DNA of 52,630 bases from positions 1 through 52,630 of the IMG/VR virus record IMGVR_UViG_3300025093_000028; one strand, written 5' to 3'. The position numbers were made by a program, and so were the translations under genes. A model generated the notes under the pieces. That model had not been told where the DNA came from, searched no databases, and saw nothing but the letters and a program-made list of their open reading frames with translations. Positions 1-11,178 of the stretch are shown one piece after another. Within the stretch, counting starts at the first letter, position 1. Every line of letters begins with the position of its first letter. The DNA comes from a virus.

Positions 1-1003
1 CTGAATCACCTTGAAGTCCTGGATTAAGACATCCAAATTGTTGTGATGTAGGTGTATCATCATCTGGTCTTATCACTGCTATAATATCTTCATACACCCA
101 CACAGGACCTGTTGCACTAGCTGCAACTGGTAGTGTTAGACCTGTTTGATTTACTCTTAAATTTCCACAAACACCTTCACCTCTAGCTCCAGAAGTTCTT
201 CCTGATGTCCAGATTTTTGGATTAGTGGCAAATAAGTTATCTAATTCAAGTGTTGTTGCAAACTGTGGGTTGTCGTTTGGTATTATACCATCTAGACCAA
301 TAGGTTGCCAAGACTTGTTATCAATTACATTTTGTTGTACAGAAAATAAAGCAGCATCTACTTTGTTAGTGATTCCTGAAGATTGGTAATATGTTGGAGC
401 ATATCTTACACTTCTTCCAACAATGTTTACTGGAGAAATGTAACCTGCTTGTGTTTCAGTGGCTTGGTATACATTGTTTACTGGATCATAATCATTTGTT
501 ATATCAGCAGGATTTGATAAATTCCTATCACTTGTAAAGTTAGGATTTTCTATAGTTACATGATTATTAGTTAGACCTACTAGTACTCCTGTTGCTGTAT
601 CTTTTACGATTGTACCTAATGTACCTACTGCAGGCCATCCTCTGTCTGAACTCATAGTTATACCTGCTCTAAGTGGCCTAGTAAACTGTCTGTTTGTAAA
701 TTCACCAGAGTTAGCACCACTCCATCCCCCACAAGTTGTACATCCTAATTGATATGCTCGTGATGCTTCAATTACATCTATTTTAATCACTTGATCACCT
801 ACAGTAATTTCAGATGGAAGAATTTCTTCAGGAGATAAGTCTTCAATAGGTTTCTTCTGAGTTACACTACATACAATAGCAGGTTCTCCAGTGGCTGTAC
901 CTCCAGAGACTTTTTCTCCCAAACCTACTGAATTAAGATTAGGATTAGCTTTTGCCATCTCTTTTATCTTATCTTTTATTTCTTGTGTTAATTCTAGTGA
1001 CAT
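1..1003 (-). CDS. Chymotrypsin-fold serine protease, virion-block gene, 3' end outside window
   Basis: Translating the minus strand from an ATG at 1003 gives 334 uninterrupted codons running off the left edge. The protein shows the chymotrypsin-like layout: an N-terminal region containing VGLGEKVSGG (26-35), LTNNHV with candidate catalytic His148, KVDAALF with candidate Asp216, SGRTSG at 267-272, and PGLQGDS ending at candidate Ser334, the last complete codon. The next codon begins with G, as expected for GDSG. Bacterial trypsin-like peptidases have this order. It lies 12 bases after the large Thr-rich protein gene and belongs to the virion block, so I infer a virion-associated or maturation protease. 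The first ~80 residues look like a conserved prodomain-type segment. The C-terminus is not visible. Confidence 0.75.
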   Translation of the reverse strand, partial: MSLELTQEIKDKIKEMAKANPNLNSVGLGEKVSGGTATGEPAIVCSVTQKKPIEDLSPEEILPSEITVGDQVIKIDVIEASRAYQLGCTTCGGWSGANSGEFTNRQFTRPLRAGITMSSDRGWPAVGTLGTIVKDTATGVLVGLTNNHVTIENPNFTSDRNLSNPADITNDYDPVNNVYQATETQAGYISPVNIVGRSVRYAPTYYQSSGITNKVDAALFSVQQNVIDNKSWQPIGLDGIIPNDNPQFATTLELDNLFATNPKIWTSGRTSGARGEGVCGNLRVNQTGLTLPVAASATGPVWVYEDIIAVIRPDDDTPTSQQFGCLNPGLQGDS

Positions 1004-1015
1004 ATTCTATTAGTT

Positions 1016-3766
1016 TTATGCTGGTGTTTCTGCTTCAAACCACGTCCATATTGTATTTACACCTTCAAGTAATGTAGTGGTTGTAGTTGTTGTACTTGGT
1101 GGTGGATCAAATGATCTAATACCATCGCTTATTCTACATTCTGCTCTACTTCCAAAGTCAGCAGCTCCCCCTGGTGTTATTCCTGATGGTGCTTCTTCTG
1201 AAGGAACTAAACTCCAAACACTTGTATTTACATCAAGTCTCCATAAACCATCTAGTGAAGGATCTATAATTAAATCTGGTCTTACAGATATATATATGTA
1301 ATTATCAACCATTCCTATAGATGCAGTACCTTTAATACCTGTTGGTAAATTTATAGTTCCTTCTAATGCACCTGTCAAGTAATCAAATTGTTTTAGATTT
1401 CCAGTATCTAGAAAGCCACCAAATGGAAGACTTGGACTAATTAGTTTATTTGGTGTTACACCATCTTCTTTAAATGTAAGAAGTACATCTCCTGTAAGTC
1501 TAAAATCAGTATTCTCCCACTTTTCAGTAACTTGTAATTCTGTAGTTCCTTCAATAATTTCTACTTCTAAAACTTTATTTATTGAAGAAGTTTGGTAAAG
1601 TGCTACAAATTTAGTGTCATTTATTGTTTCCATGACACCAGGAGCAGGATTAGTCCACTCATTTGGGAATGTATAGAAAACTCCATCCCATGTGATATTA
1701 CCAGGAACACCATTAGTTCCTAATGTGTATCCATATCTTGTCAAATTACCTGGTAGTCCAGTTTGCAGTAAATTACCAATTAAATAGTTTTCACTAACTG
1801 AAAAATCAGGATATGACATATAGCTACCTTGTGGTAATACTATTTCTTCTTTTATAAATGATACAGGATTCCAAGCATATATTCTATTATAACCTGCTTG
1901 TCCAGGATAACATGCTCCAGGATTAGCTGCACAACTATTAACGTAAGCCTCAGGATAAATTAGATTACAAGTTAGAGGTGGTTGAGTACAAGCTAATGCA
2001 ATTGGTCCACCAGTTGGTGCAGTTCCTGATATAGTTAATACAGTGTAATCAGTTTCACAACTTATAATAAACTCTCCATTAGTACTATTATCACTATATA
2101 CTCCTCCTCCAAACTGATTACCTACAACATTAACTCCATAACCAGTTGATATTGTAATGGTTGGAGTTTCTGTATTTGTGTCTGCTTGATAAATATCTCC
2201 TTGGATAAATTCACCGTTTGAAAAAGTGGTGTTTAGTATTCCAACTCTTATTGCAATATTGTTTACAGGCTGAGGAAATGTTATTGTGTAGTCAAAAGGT
2301 TGACCAGAAGGACCAGATAACCCTACACCATTTGCTCTTGGTATAACTAAACCTGTATAAGGTCCAACATAATCTAGTGTATATGATGGATATAAGGTAA
2401 AACCAGTAGGAGGTGATGTTGCTGAAATACTACTTCCCTCAACAGTCATTCCTTGATAATCAAATGATACTGGACCTATATATGGACCACTTGCACCGCT
2501 TTCCTCTCTTACATTTAACCAAGGTAGGACAATAACATCATCACAAGGATCTTCATAATAAAGATCAACATCTGAACAACCAGTTGTTGAGAATACACTT
2601 GGTGCATCTGATGTTACAGTAAAGTCTGCAGCTGCTGTATATGGAGGTTGTTGTTCTACTGTATATAAAACAAGTGTTTCTGGATGAAGAACATACAATA
2701 TACCTTCTCTTGAGAATATATCCATGTACTTTTCACCTGTGTAAGCACTAGTAAATTCTGGAACTCCTAAATCTTGCAACTTCATTGGAGCTGTTATATT
2801 TTCTTGATTAGGTCCTGAATCTAAAGTTTTTTGTTGTATCCAGTTACCTGTTCTAGTATCACCTGGATTATCATAATCAAGTCTGAAATTTGTAATCACT
2901 TGACCATTATTAAGATGTAATACACCTGGATTTGAAACAGTTCCATTACAAGTATTTACAGCTGCTCCAAGACCAATTTTATCAGAAGAAGAACTTGGTA
3001 AACTTAAAGCTATATTACCTGTATCAGATATATCAATATTATACCCAACAACTGTTGGGCAAGTATTAGTGGCAGTTGGTCCACCAAAACCTACTACTAA
3101 AGTGGTATCATTAATAGCAGTTATAGTAGTACATTGAATACCTGTAAAAGTAAGATTACTTTCACTAATATTTGCTAAAGACACATTAATCTCTCTAACA
3201 AAAGATAAAGTTGGAGGATTTGATGTACTATTTATATTATACTCTTTAACTACAAAGTTAAGTGAGGTTTCATCTGTTTCACCAGATAACCACAATTTAG
3301 TTTGTGTTGCACATATTGGTCTAGTAACTCCTTGTGTTACTGTAAAATCATTAGGAACTAATACTGCAGATACTGTATTATTTATCATATCATATACTCC
3401 TATTTCTCCTGAATCTCCTCCAAAACTTGTCCAAGTACATAATGTTGCTGGTGGAAGTGATGTTGTAGTAGTGGTAGTTGGTGGTGGAGTGGTGGTTGTA
3501 GTTGTTGTAACATCACAAATAATAGACCCAGTAAAGTCACAGTTTGGTGTAGCACAAGAATAAATATCTGTTGAACCACAAAGACTATTTAAATTATCTA
3601 ATCTAACAACAGTAGTTCCATCAGGAGCCTCTACTTGATAACCAGCCAATAACGCTGCTTTAGAAACGTTTTGAGCAAACGGTATAGCAAAACCAGTTGC
3701 ATCTGAATACAAATCAAAAGGACCTGTTTCATTGCCTGCAAAACTTAATGTTATTATTATTGTCAT
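1016..3766 (-). CDS. Large modular virion protein with poly-Thr linkers (propeller-like)
   Basis: A 916-residue protein. Its ~85-residue N-terminal domain (Phe-Asp-Leu-Tyr-Ser at 17-21, a VSKAALL helix, then Cys-containing strands) is joined by a Thr/Pro linker at 87-102 to a long beta-rich body. The body has repeated short segments and many Asn, Gly and aromatic residues, consistent with beta-propeller or lectin-like folds. A second poly-Thr run (892-898) precedes an 18-residue tail ending in WTWFEAETPA. There is no signal peptide. Its position downstream of the tail-type proteins suggests a tail fibre, receptor-binding or decoration protein. Function is inferred from architecture and neighbours only. 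Codons in the linkers are mostly ACA/ACT/ACC, giving a low-complexity DNA tract. Confidence 0.7.
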   Translation of the reverse strand: MTIIITLSFAGNETGPFDLYSDATGFAIPFAQNVSKAALLAGYQVEAPDGTTVVRLDNLNSLCGSTDIYSCATPNCDFTGSIICDVTTTTTTTPPPTTTTTTSLPPATLCTWTSFGGDSGEIGVYDMINNTVSAVLVPNDFTVTQGVTRPICATQTKLWLSGETDETSLNFVVKEYNINSTSNPPTLSFVREINVSLANISESNLTFTGIQCTTITAINDTTLVVGFGGPTATNTCPTVVGYNIDISDTGNIALSLPSSSSDKIGLGAAVNTCNGTVSNPGVLHLNNGQVITNFRLDYDNPGDTRTGNWIQQKTLDSGPNQENITAPMKLQDLGVPEFTSAYTGEKYMDIFSREGILYVLHPETLVLYTVEQQPPYTAAADFTVTSDAPSVFSTTGCSDVDLYYEDPCDDVIVLPWLNVREESGASGPYIGPVSFDYQGMTVEGSSISATSPPTGFTLYPSYTLDYVGPYTGLVIPRANGVGLSGPSGQPFDYTITFPQPVNNIAIRVGILNTTFSNGEFIQGDIYQADTNTETPTITISTGYGVNVVGNQFGGGVYSDNSTNGEFIISCETDYTVLTISGTAPTGGPIALACTQPPLTCNLIYPEAYVNSCAANPGACYPGQAGYNRIYAWNPVSFIKEEIVLPQGSYMSYPDFSVSENYLIGNLLQTGLPGNLTRYGYTLGTNGVPGNITWDGVFYTFPNEWTNPAPGVMETINDTKFVALYQTSSINKVLEVEIIEGTTELQVTEKWENTDFRLTGDVLLTFKEDGVTPNKLISPSLPFGGFLDTGNLKQFDYLTGALEGTINLPTGIKGTASIGMVDNYIYISVRPDLIIDPSLDGLWRLDVNTSVWSLVPSEEAPSGITPGGAADFGSRAECRISDGIRSFDPPPSTTTTTTTLLEGVNTIWTWFEAETPA

Positions 3767-3792
3767 ATTACTTACTATATTGTGGTTTAATA

Positions 3793-5748
3793 TTAAGGTG
3801 CTCCTGTAAGACCTGTCATGTCCAGCTCTTCAGTAGCAGCAGATTTTACAAAACTTACTGTAGATAACTTACTATCAGTTTCTACTGATGTATCATTTAA
3901 TATAATAGTTCCGTCAAGGGTAGCTCTATTTGTAAATGCAAATGTTCCTGTTTTCTCAGTTTGAATAGTAATTTCTATATCATCTCCAGCGTTACAGAGA
4001 ATTAAACCACTATCATTTGCCATCAATGTACCTGAACTAATACCGTTTCTAGATATTGTTGCTCTAACAACAATAGGTTGTCCACCGTTTGACAAGTCCC
4101 AATTTAATTTAACAGTTGGAACCTCAGTGGTAGTTGTTGTAGTGGTTGTTGGTGCTACAGTTGTTGTAGTTGTAGTGGTTGGTGCACAAGATCCCCACTC
4201 AACAAAGAAGGAGTCAGTGCTTGGATTAAAGTTTTGAAGAATCGAATCAAGATTCTGACCATCTTTATCTATTGATGAGAATTGAAAATCACTAGTGGTA
4301 ATTAGCTGCGGACTATTTGGACGGAAGAAACCATACGAAACATCCACTGCACCAAGAGCCCCATTTTCATAGTTATACCATGCGTCATATATTGTTCCTC
4401 CTATATTAAACTGTACATATACAGGAGTGGATATTCCTGACCAAGAAGTTTCACCTGTTGTGTTTATATCTGGACCAATTGGTGCAGGATTAAGAAGTAA
4501 ACTATTTTTAGTAATGCTAGGATTCGAATTACTATCATACCACGAAGCATAGTTTATATCTTGGCTTGAGTTATTATATAATAAACAATTAGGTGCTACA
4601 GTTGTTGTACTAGTTGTAGTTGATGTACTAGATGTACTAGTTGTAGTTGTAGTTGGTCCAGGACACACATAAAAATCAAGTACAACTCCAGCTAGCGCAT
4701 CAGCTGGAGGAGACAATACAAGTTTTAGTTCACTTATATTTCCACTAACTGGTGAAATTGCTGTAACTCCTGAAGAGGTTACTGGGGACGATGATGCTGG
4801 AATTGTTCCACTTAAATTAACTGTGTTTTGATCTATTTGACTTGTTATATAAGATCCACATGCAATTATTTCAGTGGCAGCAATTTCTTGAGGAGATGTT
4901 ATAGAAAGAATCTCTACGTCTCCTGGTCTTTCAATTGAACCATAACCCCCACTTATAAATGCTATAGCGTTTATTGGAGGATTAAAATTCATTACTAATG
5001 TTGAACCACCCTTCATACCAAGAGCACCTTGTCCACCAGATTGATTTGTCTGGTATGCCCCATTACATACCTCACTAGTACCTGGTGTAAATGGAACATA
5101 AATGGGTGCTAGTCCAAGATAGCTTGTAGTTAATTGAACTCCGTTGCTCAATATTTTAGTTCCATTTCCAGTCTGTACATTAGGGAAACCTTCTGGATCA
5201 GTAAAATCAAATGCTTCTATACAATCAAAAACAATAATTGTAGTGGTGGTTGTAGTTGTACTACTTGTACTACTTGTGGTAGTAGTTGTAGTTAGTTCTT
5301 CAAAACATCCTTCTATTCTACAATCTGGATAGATAGTAGTTGTAGTTGTAGTTGTTGATGATGTGCTAGTTGTCGTAGTGGTAGTACTAGAAGTACTTGT
5401 AGTGGTAGTAGTTGGGTTTGGTACAACATCAACACAACATGTAGTGATTTCACATACAGTTGGTTCATTACATCTGCTAACACATCCAGATGTTAAACGA
5501 ATCACTTTACCAGCAATATCGTTAACAGAAACAGACCCTGCATAATGAGGGTTACAATACTTAAACGTTAGTATACGTTTATACGCTAACAACTGATTGA
5601 TCTCATAAGCAGATATACAGTTACCTAACATGAATACAACATCATTGTATGCATTGTTAGCAAGCTCTGCCAGCTTACAATCAATCTGTTTAAGTAGGTC
5701 AGGAATCTTGTGACAATCCTGACAATTTGTTAATCTGGGTGTTAACAT
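3793..5748 (-). CDS. Modular virion protein with four poly-Thr/Ser linkers
   Basis: A 651-residue protein. Residues 1-110 form a Cys-rich, partly helical domain (NCQDCHKIPDLL near the start, CEITTCC near the end). Thr/Ser linkers at about 113-138 and 153-170, and two more near residues 370 and 530, separate beta-rich modules of roughly 150-190 residues. The last module, ~100 residues, looks immunoglobulin-like. There is no catalytic motif that I recognise. The arrangement of compact domains on glycosylatable linkers fits a fibre or adhesin on the virion surface. It shares linker style with the 916-residue neighbour and the C-terminus of the 380-residue protein, but the modules differ. Role inferred. 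Confidence 0.7.
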   Translation of the reverse strand: MLTPRLTNCQDCHKIPDLLKQIDCKLAELANNAYNDVVFMLGNCISAYEINQLLAYKRILTFKYCNPHYAGSVSVNDIAGKVIRLTSGCVSRCNEPTVCEITTCCVDVVPNPTTTTTSTSSTTTTTTSTSSTTTTTTTIYPDCRIEGCFEELTTTTTTSSTSSTTTTTTTIIVFDCIEAFDFTDPEGFPNVQTGNGTKILSNGVQLTTSYLGLAPIYVPFTPGTSEVCNGAYQTNQSGGQGALGMKGGSTLVMNFNPPINAIAFISGGYGSIERPGDVEILSITSPQEIAATEIIACGSYITSQIDQNTVNLSGTIPASSSPVTSSGVTAISPVSGNISELKLVLSPPADALAGVVLDFYVCPGPTTTTTSTSSTSTTTSTTTVAPNCLLYNNSSQDINYASWYDSNSNPSITKNSLLLNPAPIGPDINTTGETSWSGISTPVYVQFNIGGTIYDAWYNYENGALGAVDVSYGFFRPNSPQLITTSDFQFSSIDKDGQNLDSILQNFNPSTDSFFVEWGSCAPTTTTTTTVAPTTTTTTTTEVPTVKLNWDLSNGGQPIVVRATISRNGISSGTLMANDSGLILCNAGDDIEITIQTEKTGTFAFTNRATLDGTIILNDTSVETDSKLSTVSFVKSAATEELDMTGLTGAP

Positions 5749-9624: not shown

Positions 9625-11178
9625 TTAGAATTGTGGGATTTCTTCAATCAACACAGTTCTAGATAGATCCTCAATAAATACGTCACATCTATCTTTCATC
9701 CAGATTTCGTATCCTGGGAATTTGTTAGCAGAGCTCATACCTTGAGACTTAGCAAAGCCTAAGTGGTGACGAGTTCCATCAATATAACCCCAAGTCATAG
9801 AAGGAGCACCCTTCATACGTACCTCACGGATGTTGTTTACCATTGATCCATCTGATTGAGGAGATACATCAAATACCATGAATACAGGAGTAGACTTCTT
9901 GTTTTGTCCAAATTCTAAGTTAGTTTGTGGTAAATCTAACTCTTTCAAGTGAACAAGTTCTACACGTCCAGTCTCACGAGTAACCATTGCATCGAAAGCA
10001 AAGTTATAAGTGATAGACTGTCCTTCTCCTTGTAAGTATCTGTTTCCAGAATCAGCCATGAAAGTAAGACCTGAGTTAAGTGCATCATCTTTAAGAGCTT
10101 GTTGGAATACATCGAATCCAGCCTCATTAGTGTACATTTTAACTCTACGATCTTTAACGTCCACTCGTCTGTAGAATAAGTCTCCAAATACTGAACGAAT
10201 CAAGTTTGCAGAGAACTCACCTCTATTGTATTGTACTAAGTTTCCGTTATTTCTCATTCTGTGGTATACACCAGCAGAAGTTCTTTTTAATTCTTGTTTA
10301 GAACCGTTAGTCTTAACTGTTCCAGGCTTAGCCCAGATCATTCTCTTAACTTTCAATTCTAACATAGACTTACGCATCCAGAACTCAACGAAAGGCTCCC
10401 ATTTAACATCGTTTCTTGTTAAAGGAAGTTGATTACGTCTTTGTGGAGCATATACTAAGATGTCTAGTGGCTTACCAGAAGCATCACGCATCATCTTGTC
10501 ATCAGCCCACTCAGTGATTTTGTGCTCATATCCATATGCAGAACCTAAAGATTCGAACATAGTGATTTGCTCACCTAATCGTGGAAGACCTAATAAGTCT
10601 TGGTCAAATTCACCAATTGCAGCATCAACTAGTTCTAACTCGATACCTTGAGCTAAGAACTGAGAACTTACAAAGTCTACAGTTGGATTGTCACTTACTA
10701 ATGTAAAAGTGTACAAGAATCCAGCATTCCAAGGCTGAGGATCTTTGATTACATAGAAACGTGGTCCATACTGACGAGTACCTACAGAAACGATAGCGTT
10801 CTTAGAGAACTCATTAGTATCAAGCACTAATGTAAATTCTTGTCCATCAATACCTGGCTTAGGATTAGCAGCTGTTGAATCAGGGACATCAATGATTTTT
10901 GGGAATTTGTAAGGTACAGCGATTTGCCATTTCCAAGCATCACTATTCGTATCAATGTAATACGGAGTGCTCTTGTTAATCATATCAAGGAAATCATTGC
11001 TGTACAATGAAGATTGAGTATACAGACTGATAATCTTTTTATCATAGTCCGCAGGCTCAGTAGAGTGGAAAGACTCTAAGTGATTTGCGTCTGTTAGCTT
11101 TCCTACAGCACGCTTATCCATAGAAGCTACTCGTGCATAAGTAAAACCAGTTAGACCTGGGATAGTTTGAATTGCCAT
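9625..11178 (-). CDS. Major capsid protein
   Basis: A 517-residue soluble protein starting MAIQTIPGLTGFTYARVASMDKR. It is the fourth large gene of the terminase, portal, scaffold, capsid order, which is the strongest evidence. Its length fits HK97-fold capsid proteins, and it has the mixed alpha/beta composition, an N-terminal arm and a central region with many Arg/Lys residues (WAKPGTVKTNG near the middle) seen in such proteins. It ends in an acidic-aromatic tail, LIEEIPQF. There is no protease domain. A large RNA hairpin element follows the gene. Confidence 0.75.
   Translation of the reverse strand: MAIQTIPGLTGFTYARVASMDKRAVGKLTDANHLESFHSTEPADYDKKIISLYTQSSLYSNDFLDMINKSTPYYIDTNSDAWKWQIAVPYKFPKIIDVPDSTAANPKPGIDGQEFTLVLDTNEFSKNAIVSVGTRQYGPRFYVIKDPQPWNAGFLYTFTLVSDNPTVDFVSSQFLAQGIELELVDAAIGEFDQDLLGLPRLGEQITMFESLGSAYGYEHKITEWADDKMMRDASGKPLDILVYAPQRRNQLPLTRNDVKWEPFVEFWMRKSMLELKVKRMIWAKPGTVKTNGSKQELKRTSAGVYHRMRNNGNLVQYNRGEFSANLIRSVFGDLFYRRVDVKDRRVKMYTNEAGFDVFQQALKDDALNSGLTFMADSGNRYLQGEGQSITYNFAFDAMVTRETGRVELVHLKELDLPQTNLEFGQNKKSTPVFMVFDVSPQSDGSMVNNIREVRMKGAPSMTWGYIDGTRHHLGFAKSQGMSSANKFPGYEIWMKDRCDVFIEDLSRTVLIEEIPQF

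Follow-up and report, generated by a model that had tools for sequence, protein, structure and literature searches.

The window, that is, the whole stretch of DNA analysed (52,630 bases, an IMG/VR virus record), begins with an open reading frame on the minus strand (2-1003) that encodes 334 amino acids, stays open up to the contig edge and is truncated at Ser334. This ORF corresponds to the first 334 of ~443 residues of a predicted NAL1-like serine protease, the 3' end of which lies beyond the contig edge; the complete protein has 443 amino acids in the relatives L002/L019, L003/L020 and L004/L021. The ORF encodes, in this order, an NNHV motif with the predicted catalytic His148 (TNNHV; 560-562, minus strand), a VDAALF motif with Asp216 (VDAA; 356-358, minus strand) and a PGLQGDS motif ending in Ser334 (GDSGS; 2-4, minus strand), which bears out the original prediction of a protease gene cut at its catalytic serine. 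Also encoded are a putative N-terminal NAL1_N-like domain (residues 6-80; 764-988, minus strand), which aligns with the N-terminal domain of bacterial homologues, and a GRTSG motif (residues 268-272; 188-202, minus strand), whose bacterial counterpart is GRTT or GRTN. The Ser334 codon reads TCA on the complement, and base 1 of the window, G, is the first base of codon 335; the glycine expected after GDS is known from relatives, a 99.8% identical one (L019) continuing as TCA-GGA-TCT-GCT, i.e. S-G-S-A, and hence reading GDSGSA. In an alignment of 22 sequences with identities down to 34%, H148, D216, S334, G335 and S336 are all invariant.

Relatives of the protease are encoded at 33 viral loci and dN/dS is below 1 in every pair tested (~0.3-0.5 for most, 0.7 for the closest pair), which excludes a chance ORF. 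In one locus (L042, 1136-2463), the protease gene is broken across two frames, which a sequencing error or gene decay could explain. An AlphaFold model of a full-length relative, based on the 22-sequence alignment, reached a pTM of 0.84 and a mean pLDDT of 74, with loops 89-110 and 158-174 being uncertain. In a Foldseek comparison with the PDB, the first 34 chains were those of rice NARROW LEAF 1 (NAL1; E to 2.5e-16, ~426 columns, moderate TM of 0.51-0.58 by query length), followed by Streptomyces griseus and alpha-lytic-type proteases (E ~1e-6). The model and these matches to NAL1 and S1 enzymes support the predicted double beta-barrel; the trypsin fold originally proposed is thus upheld and can be narrowed, NAL1 being the closest structural type. 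What is best supported is that the protein is a serine endopeptidase with a chymotrypsin fold of the NAL1-like type, which looks catalytically competent and is predicted to be active.

Profile searches gave a similar picture. The Pfam family NAL1_N (PF25608) matched the window protease below the cut-off (E 0.0021) and was weak in all eight phage records checked; the region of this match also lies inside the ~426-column Foldseek alignment and the profile-profile alignment described below. Pfam Trypsin was matched by two of the 22 relatives (best E 1.1e-4), and PHROG 20754 'protease' (324 positions) by 13 of the 13 members of set A1 (best E 6.5e-17). Sequence searches of the PDB with the single protein and with the profile returned no true relative, those named above being found by structure only; nor was there a match in NCBIfam, in GenBank phages (tblastn), in plasmids or in a first scan of genome contigs for homologues. 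Homologues were then obtained with a DNA pattern for NNHVLA...VDAA, and many bacterial and archaeal ones are present among the matches listed for it; AAC codons are over-represented in this set, whose figures cover the matches listed, so the nearest bacterial donor cannot be inferred from it. The phage profile aligned with a profile of 83 complete bacterial and archaeal homologues, additionally filtered for the GxSG motif, over 306 columns (E 2.3e-34), with NNHV, VDAA, GRT, GDSGS and GLLFAG in register, and reversed and shuffled decoys gave no match to the phage profile. A tree built from 24 phage rows and 31 bacterial or archaeal ones unites all phage rows (support 100/100) on a long branch (1.83); its sampling of bacteria is biased, and long branches were flagged. 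Judging from sequences and model together, the protease represents a branch of the NAL1-like trypsin-fold proteases that is specific to phages.

Trypsin cleaves at Arg and Lys by virtue of an Asp at position 189 of its S1 pocket. At the corresponding position, located by counting back from the catalytic Ser (Ser minus 6) and not from structure, Pro328 is found in all 22 phage sequences and Met, Ile or Phe in bacterial homologues. The protease thus apparently lacks the S1-pocket Asp of trypsin, and this replacement argues against Arg/Lys specificity. Furthermore, Cys 88, 325 and 380 are conserved in the phage lineage and are missing from most bacterial relatives.

A crAss-like major capsid protein is encoded in the window (9625-11178, minus strand; PF23898, E 1.7e-28; phrog_11589, E 2.9e-36); its closest cultured relative is that of the cyanophage Leptolyngbya phage Lbo-JY46 (26.5% identity over 99%), ahead of those of Flavobacterium phages. 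According to these matches, the window belongs to a crAss-like phage and the protease lies inside its structural block, just downstream of fibre-like genes, as had been noted originally. Gene order in crAss-like loci is constant: two Thr-linked surface/fibre proteins, the protease, a collar-type tail fibre (phrog_8763, E 1.3e-20), a small coiled-coil protein, more Thr-linked proteins, a DNA-repair-exonuclease-like gene and CrAss_Ring_2. The protease is a separate polypeptide, its gene directly following a Thr-linked fibre-like gene (gap of ~4-12 bases in most loci) and being co-directional with the structural genes in crAss-like loci. In L020 (7823-8453) and equivalents, the last Thr-linked gene is separated from the exonuclease-like gene by ~630-650 bases in which no ORF reaches 80 amino acids, a spacing that is kept across loci. 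In record G036 (L277, 8961-10649), the protease occupies another genome position, ~54 kb from Ring_2 and again beside Thr-linked proteins; a 134-aa protein encoded after it appears Dps/ferritin-like by eye. Other relatives (L041, L043-L046) are encoded in records without a crassvirus capsid match, where Thr-rich-linked proteins also neighbour the protease. Since the record carrying L045 encodes a baseplate wedge subunit, it is probably that of a contractile-tailed phage.

The gene immediately upstream of the protease (1016-3766, minus strand) encodes a 916-aa Thr-linked, all-beta surface protein, of which the predicted model is partial (pTM 0.41) and gives weak kelch/propeller-like matches. 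It is preceded by a gene for a 651-aa poly-Thr-linked surface protein (3793-5748, minus strand), of which relatives without the protease retain an 88-89-aa N-terminal stub only. In this region (1016-5748) and in relatives, the domains of surface proteins are connected by long poly-Thr/Ser linkers. An N-terminal module, FDLYSD..GF, is common to the 916-aa protein and to the 82- and 360-aa proteins of L020, a similar start being present in an 882-aa protein of L041; from these sequences, it appears to be a shared virion anchor to which exchangeable outer parts are joined.

At its C-terminus, behind a poly-Thr linker, the 916-aa protein carries the tail VNTIWTWFEAETPA (1019-1060, minus strand), the protein ending in ...TTTTTTTLLEGVNTIWTWFEAETPA. 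Nearly all crAss-like loci share this arrangement, the product of the gene that precedes the protease ending in a Thr-rich linker, the pattern [NKRS]T[ILV][WYF]x1-3[WYF] and a few residues. The tail is kept where the remainder of the protein differs: once linkers and tails were masked, BLAST matched neither the upstream protein of L041 (652 aa, ending NTIYTIWVHIE) nor that of G036 (182 aa, ending NTVFVKYDVY) to the 916-aa family, and the one of L185 combines a different N-terminus with a weakly related core. The pattern is specific to the gene before the protease: of 797 distinct ORFs, 101 of them poly-Thr, from 76 capsid relatives in which no protease was detected, none ends in it. In L035/L036 the motif is internal and is followed by a further Thr linker and domains, and in the contractile-tailed group L043-L046 the upstream gene lacks it. 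The pattern was defined after the sequences had been seen and is therefore a lead rather than a test, the unrelated partner contexts being two, a small number. Its pairing with the protease suggests that the enzyme works with the upstream surface protein.

A capsid search matched at least 599 stretches, from which 80 contigs (L183-L262) with a capsid protein 94-96% identical to that of the window were kept. Within 10 kb downstream, the protease was detected in three of these 80 loci, many of which are shorter than 10 kb. It is encoded in four of 25 long records (the window, G006, G020 and G036); Ring_2 is present in 23 of the 25, nearly all picked for the 94-96% identical capsid, and three of those 23 carry the protease. 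Three loci (L186, L203, L217) have a complete capsid-to-Ring_2 block without the protease and the second surface protein, the stub of the first surface protein adjoining the tail fibre directly. The protease cassette is thus an optional accessory, and its absence from these blocks and from most relatives disfavours a core role in assembly. As a separate observation, the fibre region differs strongly among L183-L262, as in an abundant lineage swapping its surface cassette.

These data bear directly on what the enzyme might do. It shares a block with the capsid gene, as a prohead protease maturing the capsid would, and processing of virion proteins was among the roles first proposed; it is, however, absent from 20 of the 23 long Ring_2 records and from the three complete blocks, and the main text of the crAss001 structure paper, searched by term, names no protease. 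A prohead protease should be conserved together with the capsid gene, and with only three of 23 records carrying the gene this role is rejected by distribution as very improbable. Trypsin folds are sometimes reused without catalysis, so that the protein could be a pseudoprotease serving as an adhesin or structural domain; this appears quite improbable, as the triad and GDSG are invariant down to 34% identity. Another suggestion, a self-cleaving fibre, finds no support because the protease is a separate polypeptide.

Processing of the upstream fibre is a more probable alternative. The protease could recognise or cut the tail or the adjacent Thr linker in the infected cell, and so trim or release a modular fibre before assembly. 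The conserved tail sits exactly where a substrate signal would be expected, the protease gene is always adjacent to the upstream gene and, in L035/L036, a Thr-linked module stands behind the internal tail as if it were a removable extension; indeed, conservation of the tail would be expected equally for a cleavage site and for a docking site. However, few residues remain past the tail to be removed in most loci, and relatives without the protease have Thr-linked proteins too, so that this reading is possible but tentative. Less likely still is a host-takeover or counter-defence protease that would attack host proteins in the cytoplasm and owe its place near structural genes to a chance cassette insertion. 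The distance of ~54 kb between protease and Ring_2 in G036 would agree with it, as would the degradation of specific regulators and partner proteins by plant NAL1-type enzymes (PMC12915138), which for the phage protease could at most be a lead, by analogy, for partner-directed action. Against it, the neighbours of the G036 protease are still Thr-linked surface proteins and a gene whose product bears the tail, the protease is co-directional with structural genes in crAss-like loci, and the three conserved cysteines, rare in bacterial relatives, would suit an exposed protein.

The reading that we prefer, with a probability of roughly 0.4, is that the protease engages the upstream Thr-linked fibre through the tail, is displayed on the virion and clips a host-surface or biofilm protein at adsorption. 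Fold, triad, family, location, accessory distribution and pairing of tail and gene were obtained by computation; activity, docking, display and target are what we infer beyond them. The accessory cassette lies in the fibre/surface region of some crAss-like phages and also, as a separate case, of some probably contractile-tailed ones, and the protease is encoded as a free polypeptide by the gene just past the fibre-like gene. It may then dock on the fibre tail bearing NTIWTWFEAETPA, and through this engagement ride on the virion surface, where at adsorption it could clip proteinaceous host-surface or biofilm material. More speculatively, the two genes might form a tag-and-enzyme module, in which a free NAL1-like protease would be loaded on, or act on, exchangeable surface proteins via the C-terminal tag of the preceding protein, the cassette moving between crAss-like and other phages.

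In rice, NAL1 is important for yield, and to our knowledge plants are the only organisms in which functions of its protease family have been demonstrated. With its invariant active site and its likely tag for partner recognition, the phage branch could provide a simple bacterial-virus system for studying this family. The findings also suggest that proteases can be among the optional surface equipment of phages, here in a group without a close cultured member (the nearest cultured capsid relative being the 26.5% identical one above). No description of such a protease in crAss-like phages was found in a literature search; as far as our searches show, neither the NAL1-like identity of the phage lineage nor its accessory distribution nor its pairing with the tail has been described. 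The fold and the family were already known, with an unnamed member in a viral structure library and an existing PHROG family.

Among known viral proteins, PHROG 20754 matches the phage protease and carries nothing but the name 'protease', and the BFVD entry A0A7S9XDX3 (Virus NIOZ-UU157, uncharacterised; 44% identity, TM 0.88) is a plain family member deposited without a function. The syntenic 'peptidase' of Flavobacterium phage Fpv1 (NC_031914, BOX09_gp21; L056, 19101-19973) was considered as a homologue and rejected, since it has no protease motif and, besides its own 'peptidase' PHROG, matches head-decoration and minor-tail families; its annotation looks doubtful. Streptomyces griseus protease B and alpha-lytic protease (chymotrypsin-like, S1) share the double-barrel fold, but match more weakly and over the protease part only (~290 columns). 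Bacterial and archaeal NAL1-like trypsin-domain proteins (NNHVLA...VDAA...GRTT...GDSGS...GLLFAGS) align with the phage protease in every motif, whereas the phage sequences stand on their own branch of the sampled tree and have Pro328 in place of the bacterial Met, Ile or Phe. Finally, the trypsin-like serine proteases NAL1 of rice and ZmNAL1a of maize (PDB 7y77, 8pmg, 8hau), of which plant NAL1 forms an oligomeric assembly, are only ~16-17% identical to the phage protease, but their fold aligns with it along almost its entire length, N-terminal domain included.
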